A stretch of 46,436 nt of DNA from Desulfobulbaceae bacterium. Lineage in GTDB: Bacteria > Desulfobacterota > Desulfobulbia > Desulfobulbales > SURF-16. The stretch covers positions 1,611 through 48,046 of the forward strand of contig PKTX01000008.1 in NCBI GenBank assembly GCA_002868945.1, in the 5' to 3' direction. Of this stretch, positions 1 through 15,352 are shown piece after piece; position 1 is the stretch's first letter, and each line of letters begins with the position of its first letter. A program made the position numbers and the translations under genes. The notes under the pieces were generated by a model. The model searched no databases and was not told where the DNA came from. It saw only the letters and a list, made by a program, of their open reading frames with translations.

Positions 1-391
1 GGCCGCTGTCGTCCCGCTCTGCCTCGCCACCTGTTTCCGCATCAGGCTGCCGGTGGGCAAGCTCCTCTGCATCGATAATATCCAGGTCATCATCAAGGAC
101 CTCAAAGGAGTCCCAGTCATCCTCGGCATCATCATCTGTCTGCAATTCTTGCGTGGGGAGATCACTCTGGCCTGCTTCATCAGCCTCCGGCGCCTCATCA
201 GCGGCCACCTCCTGGATCTCATCCTCCTCCAGGAGCTCGACATCCTCCAGCTCGCCGGCCGGGCCGCTGTCGTCCCGCTCTGCCTCGCCACCTGTTTCCG
301 CATCGGACAGCTGGTGGGCAAGCTCCTCTGCATCGATGATGTCAAGGTCATCATCAAGGACCTCAAAGGAGTCCCAATCATCCTCGGCGCT
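1..391 (-). repeat. 261-bp in-frame tandem repeat inside acidic protein gene
   Basis: Bases 1-130 match 262-391 almost exactly with an offset of 261 bp (87 codons). The first 43 bases are identical. The differences that follow are mostly single-base changes, some of them silent. The unit encodes the acidic segment of the minus-strand gene. A third copy may lie outside the window. Confidence 0.85.
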
Positions 392-1111
392 CAGAGGCGT
401 ATCGCCGTCCCCTTCATGAGGCTCGCCATTGCTTTTTTCTTCGGTGGGGGATACAGGTGGGACTGATTCCTCCTCCGGAGCGCTTTCCTCGTCGACAAAT
501 TCAATAATGGTGTCATCGTCAACCTCAAACTCCTCAACCGGTCCTTCCTCTGCCGTTTCCGGTGGAGACGGCCGGCTGTCCGCTGCTTCCTCTGTTGCCA
601 GATCGGCCAGCTTGGAGAGGGTTTGCCGGGCCGAGTCCAGTTCTTCGAGGATTTTAACGGCATCATCCTGCCCGGAGGTGGCGGCCAGTTCGCTCAGAAG
701 TTGTTTCAGGGTGGCCAGGGTGTCCACCAGGGAGTGGCCGTCCTCGCCGCTTAGGGCAAGTTTGTCAAGGAGCTGGTTCTTTTTTTCCTCGGCAATGATA
801 AAGACATTGTCGCGGCTGATGATAATGCCTTCGGGATTGGTACCGTCTTTTATCCCTTGCTTGAGACTCTTGTTCAGGCTTGATTTGAGACTGCTGAGGT
901 TCTTGCGTTTGGCCTTTACCTCATCGGCGCTGGCCGGATCCCAGAGCTCCTGGATCAACTCCAGGGGATCAATGGCAGTGACCCTCTCCAGGCTCTGTTC
1001 ATCAGCAAGGCGGTCACGAATAGCCTTGAGCAGTTTGCCCTTCAGGGTTGCTTCATTGATGTTGAGATTGTCTATGGCCTCGGCTATGCCGGCCAGGGTG
1101 ATCAGGGCCAT
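1..1111 (-). CDS. Acidic repeat protein, C-terminus beyond window edge
   Basis: An uninterrupted minus-strand frame runs from an ATG at 1109-1111 to the left window edge, giving at least 370 residues. I do not recognise the family. The first ~165 residues look helical and of mixed charge (starts MALITLAGIAEAIDNLNI). From about residue 170 the chain becomes extremely rich in Asp and Glu. It contains an 87-residue unit that appears twice and continues past the edge; each unit carries the segment DDWDSFEVLDDDLDIIDAEE. No signal peptide or membrane segment is visible. The gene is divergent from the topoisomerase-like gene at 1415, with about 300 bp between them. The ribosome binding site is weak, so the start is the first plausible ATG rather than a proven one. 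Highly acidic repeat tails suggest a disordered scaffold, a nucleic-acid mimic or an ion-binding region, but that is speculation. Confidence 0.75.
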   Translation of the reverse strand, partial: MALITLAGIAEAIDNLNINEATLKGKLLKAIRDRLADEQSLERVTAIDPLELIQELWDPASADEVKAKRKNLSSLKSSLNKSLKQGIKDGTNPEGIIISRDNVFIIAEEKKNQLLDKLALSGEDGHSLVDTLATLKQLLSELAATSGQDDAVKILEELDSARQTLSKLADLATEEAADSRPSPPETAEEGPVEEFEVDDDTIIEFVDEESAPEEESVPPVSPTEEKSNGEPHEGDGDTPLSAEDDWDSFEVLDDDLDIIDAEELAHQLSDAETGGEAERDDSGPAGELEDVELLEEDEIQEVAADEAPEADEAGQSDLPTQELQTDDDAEDDWDSFEVLDDDLDIIDAEELAHRQPDAETGGEAERDDSG

Positions 1112-1414: not shown

Positions 1415-4147
1415 ATGGGGAAAATATTTATACTGGTTGAAAGAGAGGAAAAAAAGCAGACCCTGGCGGCCGCTTTGTCGGACACTGCCGAGGTGCTGGT
1501 TGTTCCCGCTGTGGCTGCCGTGGTTGAGGCAAAAAATGTAGACTATCTGGCCCGGGGCGAGGAGGGCTTTTTGTTTAAACCGGCAGTCGAAAGTCGTCAG
1601 ACCTTGAAGACTTTGCTGCAGGCCGGTACACCCCGCATTTATCTGGCCTTTGATAGCAGCGTCATGGGAGAGTACAGCAGCTGGCTGTGGACCGGCATGG
1701 TGGATCAACTCTCCAAAGGCGCACTCCACTGCCGTCGTCTTCATCTTGCCTCATTGGAGGAGTCGGGTTTTACCAAGGCCAAGGCCCTTGTGGAGCCCAT
1801 TGATTCAGCCCGATGCGCTTGTCTCTATTTTGAGGAGGCCTTTCAGGGCTGCCTGGCCGGTCACCTCGGCCGGTTGCTGGGCACCCGTGTGGGACCGGGC
1901 GGCATTCCGCTGACCATGCAGACCATTGCCGTCTTGACCCTGCTTGCCGAGCGAGATCAGGAGGTCAGGAGCCATGCCGGCACCCCTAAATGGCAGGTGG
2001 AACTCTCACTGCAGGCCGATGGTCCTGCCTTCCCGGCCCGGTTGCAGGAGGTATTCGGGGTCTGTTGTGACGGCAATCTGGACCACCGCCAACAGGCCAA
2101 GGAGGTGGCAGCCGATTTGGCTGATCAGGTTTTTCAGGTGGTGGCGCGTCAGGAGAATGACCTGGAGATTGCCGCGCCGCAGCCCTATGATCTCCATGGG
2201 CTTATTCTGGATGCCTTCAGGTATTGTCGCATTCCCTTTGGTGAGGCCATGCGGGCGGCCAGAGACCTTTTCGACGGCCTGGAGATTGACGGCCGGCCTC
2301 AGCCCCTCATCTCTTCCCTCTACCCCCTTGCCGGCGACAAGATGGAGCCCTTGCTGGCTGCCGTGGCCAACCAGGTGGGCACGGCCTTTGGCGAACAGGT
2401 TCTGGTGCGTCGCACTCCGGCCGGGCATGCTATTCTGCCCTTGCAACCGGCCAAGGCTGCCGCCGATATAGCGGGGCTCTCAGGCGCGGCCCGACAGATT
2501 TACGATCTGGTCCGGCAGCGCGCCTTGGCCAGCCAGATGGTCCCTGCCCGAGGCACAGAGATCGTCATCCGCCTTGCCACGCAGAAATATCAGCTGCAGA
2601 GCCAGTTTCGGGTGATTGACGAGCCCGGCTTCTTGCAGATCTACAGCCATGGCTATGATAATCTGCTCATTGACAAGGGTGCCGAGGTCCCCCAAGAGGA
2701 GCAGCAGGCCCGGGTGGCCCAGGTGGTGCCTCTGCAGCGCTCCGGCCTGGTGCCGGAACTCTATCTGTTGCCCGGTCTCTTTGAGGATCTGGCCGAGCTT
2801 GGTGTCGGCGGCCGGGAAGAGCTTATTGTCCTTTTGGGTCGGCTATGTGAGAGCGGTTATATTATGGCCCGGGGAGACGGCTCCCTGCAATGTGACACGA
2901 ACCTCTTTAAGGTGGTCAATACCTTGAACAGGGCCTTCCCGGCTATGCAGGGTATGAATTTTCTTGTCTACTATGGGCAAACCATTGATGAGGTGGCCAC
3001 GGGGCGCAAACGTTTTCAGATGGCCCTCAAACAGTTTGATCAAAACCTGGGTATTCAGGGCAAGCCGCTGGTCAAGCCCAAGATGCCCACCACCCTGCCC
3101 AAGCGTCTCAAGAAATCAAAAAGTATTATCAAGGGGGAGGAGAAAGGCCAGGCACCGCCAAAGGCATCTGCCGGCCGGTCGGCTGCGGTGCTCAGCGATT
3201 TTGATCAGCAGCCGCCTCGACAGCAGAGCCGGCAGGACCGGTCTGCTGTCGAGCCGGCGGAGCCCCTTGCCGAACCTGCTGAACAAGGCTTTGAGGAACA
3301 GGACGACGATCGCCAGCCGGTTTCTGCCGACATGGAGGAGGTAGCGGTTCAGGCGCCGGCAGGGGAAGAAGAACCGCTCTCAGGCCCTGAGGCGGAGAGC
3401 GGCGAGCAACCGGTCTCCGGGTCGGCGGCTGGAGAGCTTCAGACCGGGCAACAGGCCGATGAGCCGCCCGAGGCGGCGCCCATACCGGCTGACAGTGACC
3501 AGGGCGAGTCGGGCCAGCCAGAGAGGGGGGGCGAGGCTGAGGTCTTTCAGACGGCTGATACGACCATGAACACGCCACCGGTCCAGGAGTCTTCCGCTGC
3601 TGTCGAGCATGTCGCAAAGCCGCCACCTTTTGCGGAGACGGGACATCAGGCTGGGGGGGAGGTGGCCACCAAGCCGTGCCCGCAATGCGGGCGGCCCATG
3701 GTGTACCGGCAGGATCGTTTTGGTGGTTACTGGGCCTGTACCGGCGTACCGGCCTGTCGGCATACCCAGAATGCCGGGGCGGAGCAGAATGAGGCCGGCG
3801 ACAGTTGTCCTCTCTGTCATGAGGGGCAACTGCTGATCAAGCGGACGCCCACCGGCAAGGACATGTATGTCTGCGCGCGGCCGGAGTGTGAATTCATGGC
3901 CTGGTCAAAACCCCATGCCGTTCATTGTCCGCTCTGCACCTCTGTTTTTCTGGTTGAGCAGAAAAGGGCGGATGGCAGCGTGATGCTCACCTGTCCCAAG
4001 GCGGGCTGCAATTATGCGCGCGATATGAATGGCAGCAGTGATCAGGAGGCGCCTGTTGCAAAGAAAAAGGTGCTGGTGCGGCGTGGCAAGAAGGCTAGTG
4101 GTGGCGGCGCCAAGCGCAAGGTGGTGGTGCGGCGCCGTAAGAAATAG
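1415..4147 (+). CDS. Topoisomerase-IA-like protein with degenerate active site
   Basis: This 910-residue protein follows the order of bacterial topoisomerase I. It has an N-terminal TOPRIM-like region (ILVEREEKKQTL near residue 6; IYLAFDSSVMGE near 75), the domain equivalent to the family's GR-Q-ALR-V-RE stretch (TRVGPGGIPLTMQT near 157), the active-site domain (about 258-345), and a C-terminal region. The tail has three Cys4 zinc ribbons starting at about C755, C798 and C838, ending in a Lys/Arg-rich stretch. Residues ~590-750 form an acidic, Pro/Gln-rich linker. The catalytic parts look lost. The TOPRIM motif normally reads DPDREGE, but here it is D80-S-S-V-M-G-E86. The usual LITY-MRTDS motif reads LISSLYPLAGD at 298-308, so Ser301 falls on the tyrosine position. 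I infer a non-cleaving DNA-binding paralogue. Y303 could in principle act instead. A normal topA would have to exist elsewhere. Confidence 0.8.
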   Translation: MGKIFILVEREEKKQTLAAALSDTAEVLVVPAVAAVVEAKNVDYLARGEEGFLFKPAVESRQTLKTLLQAGTPRIYLAFDSSVMGEYSSWLWTGMVDQLSKGALHCRRLHLASLEESGFTKAKALVEPIDSARCACLYFEEAFQGCLAGHLGRLLGTRVGPGGIPLTMQTIAVLTLLAERDQEVRSHAGTPKWQVELSLQADGPAFPARLQEVFGVCCDGNLDHRQQAKEVAADLADQVFQVVARQENDLEIAAPQPYDLHGLILDAFRYCRIPFGEAMRAARDLFDGLEIDGRPQPLISSLYPLAGDKMEPLLAAVANQVGTAFGEQVLVRRTPAGHAILPLQPAKAAADIAGLSGAARQIYDLVRQRALASQMVPARGTEIVIRLATQKYQLQSQFRVIDEPGFLQIYSHGYDNLLIDKGAEVPQEEQQARVAQVVPLQRSGLVPELYLLPGLFEDLAELGVGGREELIVLLGRLCESGYIMARGDGSLQCDTNLFKVVNTLNRAFPAMQGMNFLVYYGQTIDEVATGRKRFQMALKQFDQNLGIQGKPLVKPKMPTTLPKRLKKSKSIIKGEEKGQAPPKASAGRSAAVLSDFDQQPPRQQSRQDRSAVEPAEPLAEPAEQGFEEQDDDRQPVSADMEEVAVQAPAGEEEPLSGPEAESGEQPVSGSAAGELQTGQQADEPPEAAPIPADSDQGESGQPERGGEAEVFQTADTTMNTPPVQESSAAVEHVAKPPPFAETGHQAGGEVATKPCPQCGRPMVYRQDRFGGYWACTGVPACRHTQNAGAEQNEAGDSCPLCHEGQLLIKRTPTGKDMYVCARPECEFMAWSKPHAVHCPLCTSVFLVEQKRADGSVMLTCPKAGCNYARDMNGSSDQEAPVAKKKVLVRRGKKASGGGAKRKVVVRRRKK

Positions 4148-7574: not shown

Positions 7575-9299
7575 TTACTTGGCGGGCCACCACTCCGGCT
7601 CCAGGCGGGAGATGACGTTAAAGCCGCCGCCCAGTACCAGGGTGTTGCCTATGCCCATGGCGTCGAGAAAGACCTGAATTTCGTAGGAACGGGTACCTGC
7701 ATCACAGATGATGATCAGGGTCTTGTCCGTGGGCAGTTCCCTGTAGTTGGCGCGCACCGAGTCATAAACCATCTCCAGCCAGGTCTCGCCATACTTCTCC
7801 TTAAAGGGTTTGACCTCGCTGGGGTGGCGGATGTCCAGGGCCCGCCAGTCGGGTTGGCTGCTGAAGTCATCCATCCAGGCCATGAAGTCGGGGATGGAGA
7901 CGTTGCGCTGCCGGTTCATCTGCATGTTGTCGGCCACGTTGGCGGCGGTGTTTAAGGCATCAAGGGCCGTGGCAAAGGGTGGTGCATAGGCCATCTCGCA
8001 GAGGCTGAAATCGTCAATGGTGCCTTTCTTGGCAATGAGGGCCGCGGCTGCATCAATCCTGGCCAGGACTGCGTCGTTCATGGGGCCGAAGCCCTGGACA
8101 CCGAGGACGCGCCTGGTGCGGCGATCAAAGACGAGCTGCAGGGGGATTTTGGCCTCGGTTGGAAAGAAATGGGCCCGATCGGAGGGGGCGGTGATGGCGG
8201 CATCGGCATCAAAACCGGCGGCCCGGGCCGACTCCAGGGAGAGGCCGGTGGCGCCGATGCAGCGTTCAAAGGCCTTCATGATAAAGGAGCCCATGGCGCC
8301 CGGATAGGTGGTGGCAATACCGGCAAGGTTGTCGCCGACAATGCGGCCCTCGCGGTTGGCCAGGGAACCGAGAGGCGCCATGAATTTCTGGCCGGAAACC
8401 ATATGGGTGATCTCAATGCAGTCACCGGCGGCGTAGATATTGGGGTCCGAGGTCTGCAGCCGGTCGTTGACGACAATGCCAAAGGGCGAGACGATCAGAC
8501 CGGCATCACTGGCCAGCTGGCTGCGGGGCCGCACGCCGGTGGCCATGATGACGATGTCGGTCTCAATGGTGCGCTTGGGGGTGACCACCTTGCAGGCCCG
8601 GCCGTTTTCATCGGCAACGATCTCGGAGGCGCCTTCCCCGGTGTGGATTTGCACTCCCATGGCGCTCATATGCTTCTCCAGCATGGTGGCAAACCAGGGA
8701 TCAACAATGCGGGGCAGGAGCTGGGGCATGAATTCCACCACCGAGGTCTCCACCCCCCACAGATCGGTAAAGGCCTCGGCCATCTCCAGACCGATGGCGC
8801 CGCCGCCGATAACCACTGCCTTGCCCACCTTGCCGGTGGCGAGGCGGCCCTTGATGTCAATGGCCTTGTGCAGGTCGCTGATGGTGTAGACCCCGTCCAG
8901 GTCGGCGCCGGGAATGGGCAGGACAAAGGGTTGGGAGCCGGTGGCAATGACCAGTTTGTCGTAGGGGACGGCATCCTTGTCGCCGCTTTGCACATGTTCC
9001 ACGGCCACGGTCTTTTCCTGACGGTTGATGGCCACGGCCCTGGTCAGGGTGCGGACAGTGACACCCTTGGCGCGCAGAAAAAAATCTTCATTCCTGGTCA
9101 TGTGGAAACTGGTCTTGCGCAACTCGTCTTCATCGGAGACATCCCCGGAGACATAATAGGGAATGCCGCAGCCGCCGTACGAAATGAGGCTGTCCTGGTC
9201 AATAATGGTGATTTCCGCATCCGGCATGAGCCGTTTGGCATGACAGGCTGTTTTTGGTCCGGCGGCAACACCGCCGATAATGACTATTTTCTCTCCCAT
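7575..9299 (-). CDS. CoA-disulfide/polysulfide reductase fused to rhodanese (CoADR-Rhd)
   Basis: This 574-residue flavoprotein has an N-terminal FAD-binding fold (IVIIGGVAAGPKTA at residues 5-18). The redox cysteine C44 lies in SYGGCGIPYYV, the single-cysteine arrangement of CoA-disulfide reductases. An NAD(P)H-binding motif VVIGGGAIGLEMAEAF sits near 168, the second FAD motif IYAAGDC near 298, and then a dimerisation domain. The last ~100 residues are a rhodanese domain with the active Cys532 in CDAGTR. Known fusions (for example in Shewanella and Bacillus) reduce CoA persulfides and polysulfides with NADH, which fits sulfur metabolism here. Its start has a strong purine-rich ribosome binding site (GGGAGGGAG) just upstream. 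No clear terminator follows in 7391-7574. Confidence 0.92.
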   Translation of the reverse strand: MGEKIVIIGGVAAGPKTACHAKRLMPDAEITIIDQDSLISYGGCGIPYYVSGDVSDEDELRKTSFHMTRNEDFFLRAKGVTVRTLTRAVAINRQEKTVAVEHVQSGDKDAVPYDKLVIATGSQPFVLPIPGADLDGVYTISDLHKAIDIKGRLATGKVGKAVVIGGGAIGLEMAEAFTDLWGVETSVVEFMPQLLPRIVDPWFATMLEKHMSAMGVQIHTGEGASEIVADENGRACKVVTPKRTIETDIVIMATGVRPRSQLASDAGLIVSPFGIVVNDRLQTSDPNIYAAGDCIEITHMVSGQKFMAPLGSLANREGRIVGDNLAGIATTYPGAMGSFIMKAFERCIGATGLSLESARAAGFDADAAITAPSDRAHFFPTEAKIPLQLVFDRRTRRVLGVQGFGPMNDAVLARIDAAAALIAKKGTIDDFSLCEMAYAPPFATALDALNTAANVADNMQMNRQRNVSIPDFMAWMDDFSSQPDWRALDIRHPSEVKPFKEKYGETWLEMVYDSVRANYRELPTDKTLIIICDAGTRSYEIQVFLDAMGIGNTLVLGGGFNVISRLEPEWWPAK

Positions 9300-12877: not shown

Positions 12878-14152
12878 ATGCCAAAGCATGATACGCCCTT
12901 AATGGACGAGCTCGAGAGTGGTCCTTGGCCATCGTTTGTAACTGACCTCAAGCGTCAGGCGGAGACCAAGCCGGAATGTTGGGATATTCTGGGCCAAATG
13001 GAGCTGTCCTTCAAAGACAGAATTACCCACTGGAAACACGGCGGTATCGTTGGTGTATTCGGTTACGGTGGTGGTATTGTTGGTCGTTATTCCGACTCCC
13101 CCAAGCAGTTTCCCGGGGTTGCCCACTTTCACACCGTCCGTATTAACCAGCCTTCCAGTAAGTTCTACAGCACTGCCAAGCTGCGTGCCATTTGTGATCT
13201 CTGGGAGAAGTATGGTTCCGGTATGACCAATATGCACGGCTCCACCGGTGACATGATTCTTCTCGGTACCCGTACCGAAAACCTCGAGCCTCTGTTTTAT
13301 GATCTGACCCATGATCTGAACCAGGATCTCGGTGGTTCCGGCTCCAACCTGCGTACCCCGGCCTGCTGTCTCGGTACTGCCCGTTGCGAGTGGGCTTGCT
13401 ATGATACGGCTTCCATCTGTCATCATCTGACCATGCATTATCAGGATGAGATTCATCGTCCTGCCTTCCCCTACAAGTTCAAGTTCAAGTTTTCCGGTTG
13501 TCCGAACGACTGCGTTGCTTCCATTGCCCGTTCCGACTTCTCCGTCATCGGTACCTGGAAAGATGATATCCGCATCGATCAGGCCGCGGTTCAGGGCTAC
13601 ATCAAGGGCGAGTACAAGCCCAACGGCGGTGCCCGCACCGAGTCCAAGGCCTTTGACATGGAGGCCGATGTTCTGGCTCTCTGCCCCACCAAGTGCATGC
13701 GCATGAAGGGCGACGAACTGCAGATTGACAACAGCAACTGTACCCGCTGTATGCATTGCATCAACATGATGCCGCGCGCTCTGCGGCCCGGCAAACAGCA
13801 GGGTGCTACCATCCTCTGCGGTGCCAAGGCCCCCATTCTTTATGGTGCGCAGCTGGCCACCATGATCATCCCCTTTATCGAGATCAATCCCGACAACGAG
13901 TACGAAGAGGTTATCGAGGTTATCGAGACCATCTGGGATTGGTGGATGGAGAATGGTAAGAACCGCGAGCGCCTTGGTGAGACCATGCAGCGTGTCGGTC
14001 TGCCCACCTTCCTGAAAGTTATGGATGTGACCCCGATTCCTCAGCATATTAAGATCCCGCGTGAAAACCCCTATGTCTTCTGGTCCGACGAAGAGGTTCC
14101 GGGTGGTTTTGAGCGTGATATCAGGGAATTCCGTAAGCGCCACGCCCAATAA
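12878..14152 (+). CDS. dsrA: Dissimilatory sulfite reductase, alpha subunit
   Basis: The protein has 424 residues, the usual DsrA length. With DsrB it forms the cytoplasmic siroheme enzyme that reduces sulfite and passes the product on as DsrC trisulfide. The siroheme/[4Fe-4S] ligand motifs are intact: C164-X5-C170 in CCLGTARC, then C208-X3-C212 in GCPNDC. A ferredoxin domain near residues 260-300 holds a second cluster (CPTKC and CTRCMHCINM). The N-terminus (HGGIVGVFGYGGGIVGRYSD) is typical of deltaproteobacterial DsrA. Codon choice is smoother and richer in preferred codons (GGT, CGT, TCC) than in neighbouring genes, as expected for an abundant protein. It is first in dsrABD. Confidence 0.98.
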   Translation: MPKHDTPLMDELESGPWPSFVTDLKRQAETKPECWDILGQMELSFKDRITHWKHGGIVGVFGYGGGIVGRYSDSPKQFPGVAHFHTVRINQPSSKFYSTAKLRAICDLWEKYGSGMTNMHGSTGDMILLGTRTENLEPLFYDLTHDLNQDLGGSGSNLRTPACCLGTARCEWACYDTASICHHLTMHYQDEIHRPAFPYKFKFKFSGCPNDCVASIARSDFSVIGTWKDDIRIDQAAVQGYIKGEYKPNGGARTESKAFDMEADVLALCPTKCMRMKGDELQIDNSNCTRCMHCINMMPRALRPGKQQGATILCGAKAPILYGAQLATMIIPFIEINPDNEYEEVIEVIETIWDWWMENGKNRERLGETMQRVGLPTFLKVMDVTPIPQHIKIPRENPYVFWSDEEVPGGFERDIREFRKRHAQ

Positions 14153-14221
14153 TCAGAGCCTGATTAACCGGTAAAGCGAACATTAAATAAAATTCATTCT
14201 ATATATAGAAGGAGGTTTATT

Positions 14222-15352
14222 ATGGGTTACGATCCAGCAAATCCGATGGCGGACAGAATTACCGATATCGGTCCCCCACATTTTGAACAATTCTATCCCC
14301 AGGTTATCAAAGAGAACAAGGGGAAGTGGCTCTATCATGAGATCCTGCAGCCCGGTGTTTTGGTGCATGTCTCTGAAACCGGCGCCGAGTGCTACACCGT
14401 ACGTGTCGGCTCCGCCCGTCTGATCTCCATTGAACAGATTCGCGAGCTGTGTGATATCGCTGATGCCCATTGCGATGGTTGTCTGCGTTTCACCACCCGT
14501 AACAACGTAGAGTTCATGGTTGATTCCAAGGACAAGGTCCAGCCCCTGCTGGACGATCTGGCCAGCCGCGGTAATAAGTTCCCCGTAGGTGGTACCGGCG
14601 CCTGTGTCTCCAACTGTGTACATACCCAGGGTTGGATTCACTGTCATACTCCGGCCACTGACGCCTCTGGTGTTGTCAAGGCGGTTATGGATGAGATCTT
14701 TGACCATTTCGTCAACATGGACCTGCCTGCCAAGGTGAAACTGGCCCTGGCCTGCTGTCTGAATATGTGTGGTGCCGTACATTGCTCCGACATTGCCATC
14801 CTCGGCGTGCATCGTAAGCCGCCGATGATTGATCATGATGCCATTACCGGTCTTTGTGAGTTGCCCCTGGCCATTGCCTCCTGTCCTCTTGGTGCCGTTA
14901 AGCCTGCCAAGGCCACCAATGCAAAGGGAGAGGAAGTCAAGTCGGTAACCGTTAACAATGACCGTTGTATGTTCTGCGGTAACTGCTACACCATGTGTCC
15001 GGCCATGCCTCTTGCTGATCCTGATGGTGACGGTATTGCTATTCTGGTTGGTGGTAAGGTGTCCAATGCCAAGTCAAACCCCACCTTCTCCAAGATGGTA
15101 ATCCCCTTCCTGCCCAACACACCGCCACGCTGGCCTGAGACGGTTGAGGCCATCAAGAATATTCTTGAGGTGTATGCCAAGGACGCCAATCAGTACGAGC
15201 GTATCGGCGAGTGGGCTGAGCGTATCGGTTGGGAGATGTTCTTTGAAACGACGGGTATTCCGTTTACCATGAAGTCCATTGATGACTATCGTCTGGCTTA
15301 TGATACCTGGAGAACCACCACCAACTTCAAGTTCACCAGCCACTGCAAGTAA
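14222..15352 (+). CDS. dsrB: Dissimilatory sulfite reductase, beta subunit
   Basis: This 376-residue DsrB begins [19 protein letters not shown] and carries the cofactor motifs [11 protein letters not shown] (near residue 132) and [11 protein letters not shown] (near 178). A ferredoxin-type cluster motif [12 protein letters not shown] lies near residue 250. It pairs with DsrA in the heterotetramer that binds siroheme at the subunit interface. The start follows a strong AAGGAGG. It lies 69 bp after dsrA, in one transcript. A hairpin with a T-tract follows its stop and may lower expression of the downstream dsrD. Confidence 0.98.

Follow-up and report, generated by a model that had tools for sequence, protein, structure and literature searches.

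The locus and its genes

The window, by which we mean the whole 46,436-nucleotide stretch analysed, carries two divergently oriented genes at its left end. The plus-strand gene (1415–4147) encodes TopX, a protein of 910 amino acids that was recognised as an inactive type IA topoisomerase paralogue from its open reading frame, its Pfam and NCBIfam profile matches, its AlphaFold2 (AF2) fold and its family. The frame runs from an ATG at 1415 to a stop codon ending at 4147 and contains zero internal stops. TopX matched Topoisom_bac (PF01131; 8.8e-21, over the cut-off) and Zn_ribbon_Top1, and scored 105 bits on the TopA equivalog model TIGR01051, below its cut-off of 456.4 bits. The minus-strand gene (2–1111) encodes the N-terminal 370 amino acids of an acidic protein, PN, assigned as the partner of TopX from co-occurrence and adjacency; it continues past the left window edge, so that its C-terminal FGE domain falls beyond the window. 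The stretch between the two genes (1112–1414, no strand) varies in length and sequence among relatives, and no clear shared repeat or regulatory motif was found in the divergent TopX/PN intergenic regions.

Alignments to E. coli TopA and to the shorter relatives described below divided TopX, on the plus strand throughout, into a degenerate TOPRIM domain (residues 1–130; 1415–1804), the first half of domain IV (approximately residues 125–186; 1787–1972), domains II and III with the strand-passage gate (residues 187–440; 1973–2734) and the second half of domain IV (residues 441–560; 2735–3094). The fold rows of the TOPRIM region matched other Toprim domains as well, and the domain IV boundaries follow the E. 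coli TopA structure. The core is followed by an acidic, low-confidence linker of 188 amino acids (residues 561–748; 3095–3658; net charge −22), which is the fastest-evolving part of the protein, by three C4 zinc ribbons (residues 749–871; 3659–4027), with cysteines invariant in ribbons 2 and 3, and by a conserved basic C-terminal tail (residues 885–910; 4067–4144; net charge +13) with two KK-hydrophobic-VRR motifs. This layout bears out a preliminary description of the DNA, which had noted an open 910-residue frame with topoisomerase I architecture and an acidic linker between the core and three zinc ribbons.

Further along, dsrA and dsrB (12878–15352, +; 424 and 376 amino acids, NIR_SIR domains) identify the window organism as a sulfate/sulfite reducer. 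TopX and PN lie on the dsrA contig, within approximately 16 kb, in 16 of 30 genomes, and the gene order around the pair is sat, aroB, PN/TopX and then dsrAB (sat and aroB were named from sequence, without a family search). A tie of TopX to sulfate respiration was considered and rejected: dsrA was present in 57 of 58 relatives, with or without TopX, so that the dsrAB neighbourhood does not discriminate, and the closeness of the pair to dsrAB may be an inherited gene order. In 15 of 22 loci the region downstream of TopX retains a pyridine-nucleotide disulfide oxidoreductase gene (7575–9299, −, in the window).

Loss of the catalytic site

The two motif changes named in the preliminary description were both present in the alignment to E. 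coli TopA. DPDREGE is replaced by DSSVMGE (D80 to E86; 1652–1672, +), and LITYMRTDS by LISSLYPLAGD (L298 to D308; 2306–2338, +), with S301 at the position of the nucleophilic Y319. Measured against E. coli TopA, the window protein retains E9 (as E9), K13 and D111 (as D80), and has changed D113 to S82, E115 to M84, Y319 to S301, R321 to Y303, H365 to G337 and R369 to L341.

Across 34 aligned TopX members, numbered according to E. coli TopA, the Y319 column held Tyr only once and Ser, Ala or Thr in 30 sequences; R321 and R369 were found in none, H365 in one at most, and E115 was kept in one and lost in 33. Retention was much higher on the rest of the TOPRIM side, with K13 in 32/34, E9 as Glu or Asp in 33/34, D111 in 25/34 and D113 in 27/34. 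The alignment thus describes a family with a cleavage site that is dead in every member and a metal-binding side that has been eroded just in part. The statement that both sites had been lost is accordingly exact for the window's genus, the extreme case of TOPRIM erosion in the alignment (D113 to Ser, E115 to Met), but does not hold family-wide, given the retained D111 and D113.

A second, intact topA was sought in the same genome and is present on another contig (G000:C64); it encodes 767 amino acids, scores 792 bits and has both DPDREGE and LITYMRTDS intact. As a separate observation, six genomes of sulfate reducers (G032, G041, G042, G050, G051 and G116, from f11 and f12, some of them complete) contained no topoisomerase over the TIGR01051 cut-off; their type IA proteins reached just ~165–220 bits, and TopX was absent too.

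Family, selection and predicted structure

A search of the 58 nearest genomes found TopX relatives in 30, and further ones occur in the class; dozens of genomes carry the gene with the same losses, more than chance would give. The frames were open in essentially all members, the one internal stop occurring in a C-terminal fragment from one genome. A tree was built from 34 TopX and 18 TopA sequences plus two TopA from outside; in it TopX was monophyletic with a branch support of 100/100 and a branch length of 2.93. By sequence, TopX is a new non-catalytic branch of the type IA topoisomerase family, and its descent from that family is clear. A scan of genome contigs with a single TopX sequence returned only two relatives, from Lachnospiraceae, at 36–39% identity. 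An origin from mobile elements was rejected after tblastn against plasmid and phage records gave just TopA-like or ribbon matches, at <60% identity and with none covering 80% of TopX.

Estimates by the Nei-Gojobori method on close full-length pairs gave dN/dS values of 0.11–0.24 for the TopX core and 0.28–0.87 for the linker; in one of these pairs the true TopA gave 0.07. At the sequence level, TopX is under purifying selection, and its status as a pseudogene is excluded because the core values lie far below 1. With the active site gone family-wide, the selected core agrees with the non-cleaving role that the preliminary description had proposed.

The AF2 model, built on a 22-row family alignment, reached a pLDDT of ~92 over residues 1–560 and fell to <50 in the linker and tail. 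Its best solved matches were the E. coli and Streptococcus TopA cores (Z 28–29, 503–525 residues, rmsd 4.7–5.6), including E. coli TopA 1cy0 (Z 28.8, 503 residues, 4.7 Å), so that the toroid is predicted to have been kept. TopX thus shares with bacterial TopA (TIGR01051, PF01131) a four-domain toroid fold, domain order, C-terminal C4 zinc ribbons and common descent, but differs in having no nucleophilic tyrosine, R321 or E115, and in its long acidic linker, extra basic tail and tie to PN. No description of inactive type IA paralogues or of a TopX/PN pair was found in the open-licence literature searched.

The acidic partner PN

PN was encoded in 27 of 30 TopX-bearing relatives vs. 0 of 28 without TopX (Fisher 1.6e-13), and in all three TopX-bearing relatives without it, TopX lies at a contig end. 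Of 38 loci inspected, 35 have the two genes side by side; a contig end truncates two of the remaining three, and the last (G468) carries TopX and PN on separate contigs. Their orientation is divergent in most genomes and an overlapping co-directional operon in family f31, where the pair is kept. These counts strengthen the earlier suggestion that the divergent acidic neighbour, which starts at 1111 (−) and is cut by the window edge, may be a partner of TopX. In one f47 genome (L146, 11192–14109, −), a DUF3482 GTPase and a DUF2868 protein adjoin PN.

Complete PN relatives consist of an N-terminal domain, a very acidic linker (net charge −151 over 525 amino acids in one relative) and a C-terminal FGE-sulfatase domain, the last detected with PF03781 at ~1e-49 in three complete relatives and most closely related, among solved structures, to SUMF2 (1y4j, 1e-38). 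PN shares its fold with the FGE family but differs in the winged-helix-like domain joined to it by the acidic linker and in the catalytic Cys pair (C336/C341 in human FGE), where a set of 15 PN sequences showed no conserved Cys; the PN of the window genome itself is truncated ahead of the FGE part. Because this pair is not conserved, the FGE domain of PN looks non-catalytic. The linker varies widely in length between relatives. In the window genome (L035, 1–2721, −, reaching window positions 2–1111) it contains several near-identical copies of DDWDSFEVLDDDLDIIDAEELA, and no DNA-level tandem repeats above threshold were detected in the window part of PN.

The N-terminal domain of PN (residues 1–108; 788–1111, −) was predicted by AF2 to resemble winged-helix domains. 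Its top structural matches were mostly OmpR/PhoB-type DNA-binding domains, and no other winged-helix family was among the matches listed. The similarity is weak (Foldseek E 0.49; Z 7.5 at best, under the safe level) and PN, unlike the OmpR/PhoB proteins, has no receiver domain; a winged-helix nature is suggestive only.

Short forms of TopX and an accessory ParA-type ATPase

Outside the window's order, TopX measured only 457–501 amino acids in families f31, f47, f50 and f75, and family f89 contributed a fragment of the same short kind, cut by a contig end. Residues 1–60 of short TopX correspond to residues 125–184 of the window protein and 153–211 of E. coli TopA, and residues from 61 onward to those from 440 and 467 onward, respectively; in f31 the equivalent of E. 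coli 153–211 is joined straight to 467 onward. Both halves of domain IV are hence retained, with two ribbons and then the basic tail behind them, while TOPRIM and the gate (domains II and III) are gone and PN still adjoins. The ranking of mean pairwise identity within full-length TopX (tail 59%, ribbons 2–3 58%, domain IV 44–47%, TOPRIM and gate 33%) agrees with this natural deletion series, and these two independent lines indicate that selection is strongest on domain IV, the ribbons and the tail. Judged by sequence conservation, selection appears to keep the binding module of TopX and not strand passage. Since short TopX has neither TOPRIM nor gate, the function common to the family cannot be supercoil sensing by way of the toroid; the preliminary proposal of a supercoil sensor is weakened by these distant members, in which domain IV, ribbons, tail and partner all stay.

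In f47 and f89 only, short TopX is encoded next to a ParA/MinD-type ATPase (AAA_31, 1e-53 to 2e-10) and a small acidic-tailed protein. At locus L145 (10514–13260, +) the ATPase, the small acidic-tailed protein and short TopX form one operon, divergent from PN. The small protein occurred in all six genomes tested of f47 (4/4), f89 and f50, and was absent from f31, f75, f53 and all 58 window relatives when searched with the same profile that detects the six positive genomes. Because of this distribution, the small protein and the ATPase were considered lineage-specific accessories outside the window's system. No cognate ParA ATPase was found near TopX in the window's order, and a housekeeping ParA was rejected as partner there, as its homologues, at 39–44% identity, were found in TopX-minus genomes too. 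The resemblance to ParA/MinD-type systems is confined to two outlying families that have a ParA-type gene in their TopX operons; in the window's order none adjoins TopX, and no ParB-like centromere binder was seen.

Proposed function and alternative explanations

We consider the chances about even that TopX, a TopA paralogue without strand cleavage, acts as a binding scaffold complexed with PN. In TopA, domains I, III and IV bind ssDNA (PMC8191776), and the E. coli enzyme contacts RNA polymerase (RNAP) with both its C-terminal and its Zn-binding domain (PMC9352719). In TopX, single-stranded nucleic acid would accordingly be held by domain IV together with the zinc ribbons, and the ribbons would, by analogy, probably touch RNAP. 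The zinc-ribbon module is TopA-like in sequence, as in the E. coli C-terminal domain on RNAP (PMC9352719; PDB 9gda-9gdh), but in TopX it sits on a dead core, and RNAP binding need not carry over. Charge complementarity suggests that the basic KK-hydrophobic-VRR tail docks on the long acidic linker of PN, which could take several TopX tails (the net charge of the linker is about −150 in one relative). Together with the winged-helix-like and non-catalytic FGE-fold domains of PN, TopX would form a DNA-bound complex that may tune transcription-coupled DNA topology or nucleoid organisation and that, in some lineages, may be linked to a ParA-type ATPase. In its fullest form, which we put forward only tentatively, this would be an undescribed two-protein chromosomal complex of two dead enzymes, with the topoisomerase providing nucleic-acid and RNAP contacts, the winged-helix/pseudo-FGE protein an acidic string for multivalent docking and the ParA-type ATPase, in some lineages, placement on the nucleoid.

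Other explanations account for part of these observations. TopX could be a natural competitor of TopA for RNAP that displaces it, raises negative supercoiling under some condition and is controlled by PN. The ribbons are indeed the part of TopX most like the genome's own TopA (37% in the zinc region vs. 11–24% elsewhere), and E. coli cells that overexpress the TopA C-terminal domain or the Y319F mutant die, showing hypernegative supercoiling and R-loops (PMC9352719). A plain decoy would, however, have no need for a 560-residue core, and the retained domain IV, the basic tail and the strict tie to PN are left unexplained; we regard competition as unlikely. Somewhat less credence still was given to a role of TopX-PN in a ParA-type positioning or segregation system, on the nucleoid or on a cargo, with the basic tail stimulating a ParA-like ATPase. 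The adjoining ATPase and small acidic-tailed protein in f47 and f89 speak for it, and the basic disordered tail resembles ParA-stimulating peptides, but the small protein is found in 0/58 window relatives, and the ParA homologues in the window's order are shared with TopX-minus genomes.

It is improbable that TopX retains some other catalysis through its remaining acids, for instance Toprim phosphoryl transfer or RNA processing. The frequent K13, E9 or D9, D111 and D113 would fit a metal-dependent activity other than strand passage and weigh against the scaffold reading, whereas the near-universal loss of E115, the loss of D113 in the window's genus and the existence of short TopX without TOPRIM do not. 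Least tenable, and very improbable, is that TopX is a decaying pseudogene or an ordinary topoisomerase using another tyrosine. The open frames and low dN/dS oppose decay. In the window's genus Y303 lies two residues past the lost position, and the preliminary description had allowed for it in the active site, but it aligns to R321 and not to Y319, its column holds Tyr in only 5 of 34 members and the remaining active site is gone. The placement of Y303 and the intact topA both speak for the preliminary description.

If the scaffold reading of TopX with PN is true, this conserved non-cleaving type IA family would represent a TopA scaffold reused for a purely structural job. Its natural deletion series indicates that members can do without TOPRIM and the gate but not without domain IV, the ribbons and the basic tail. 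TopX would then give a direct handle on the non-catalytic parts of TopA and on the coupling of transcription and DNA topology in sulfate reducers.
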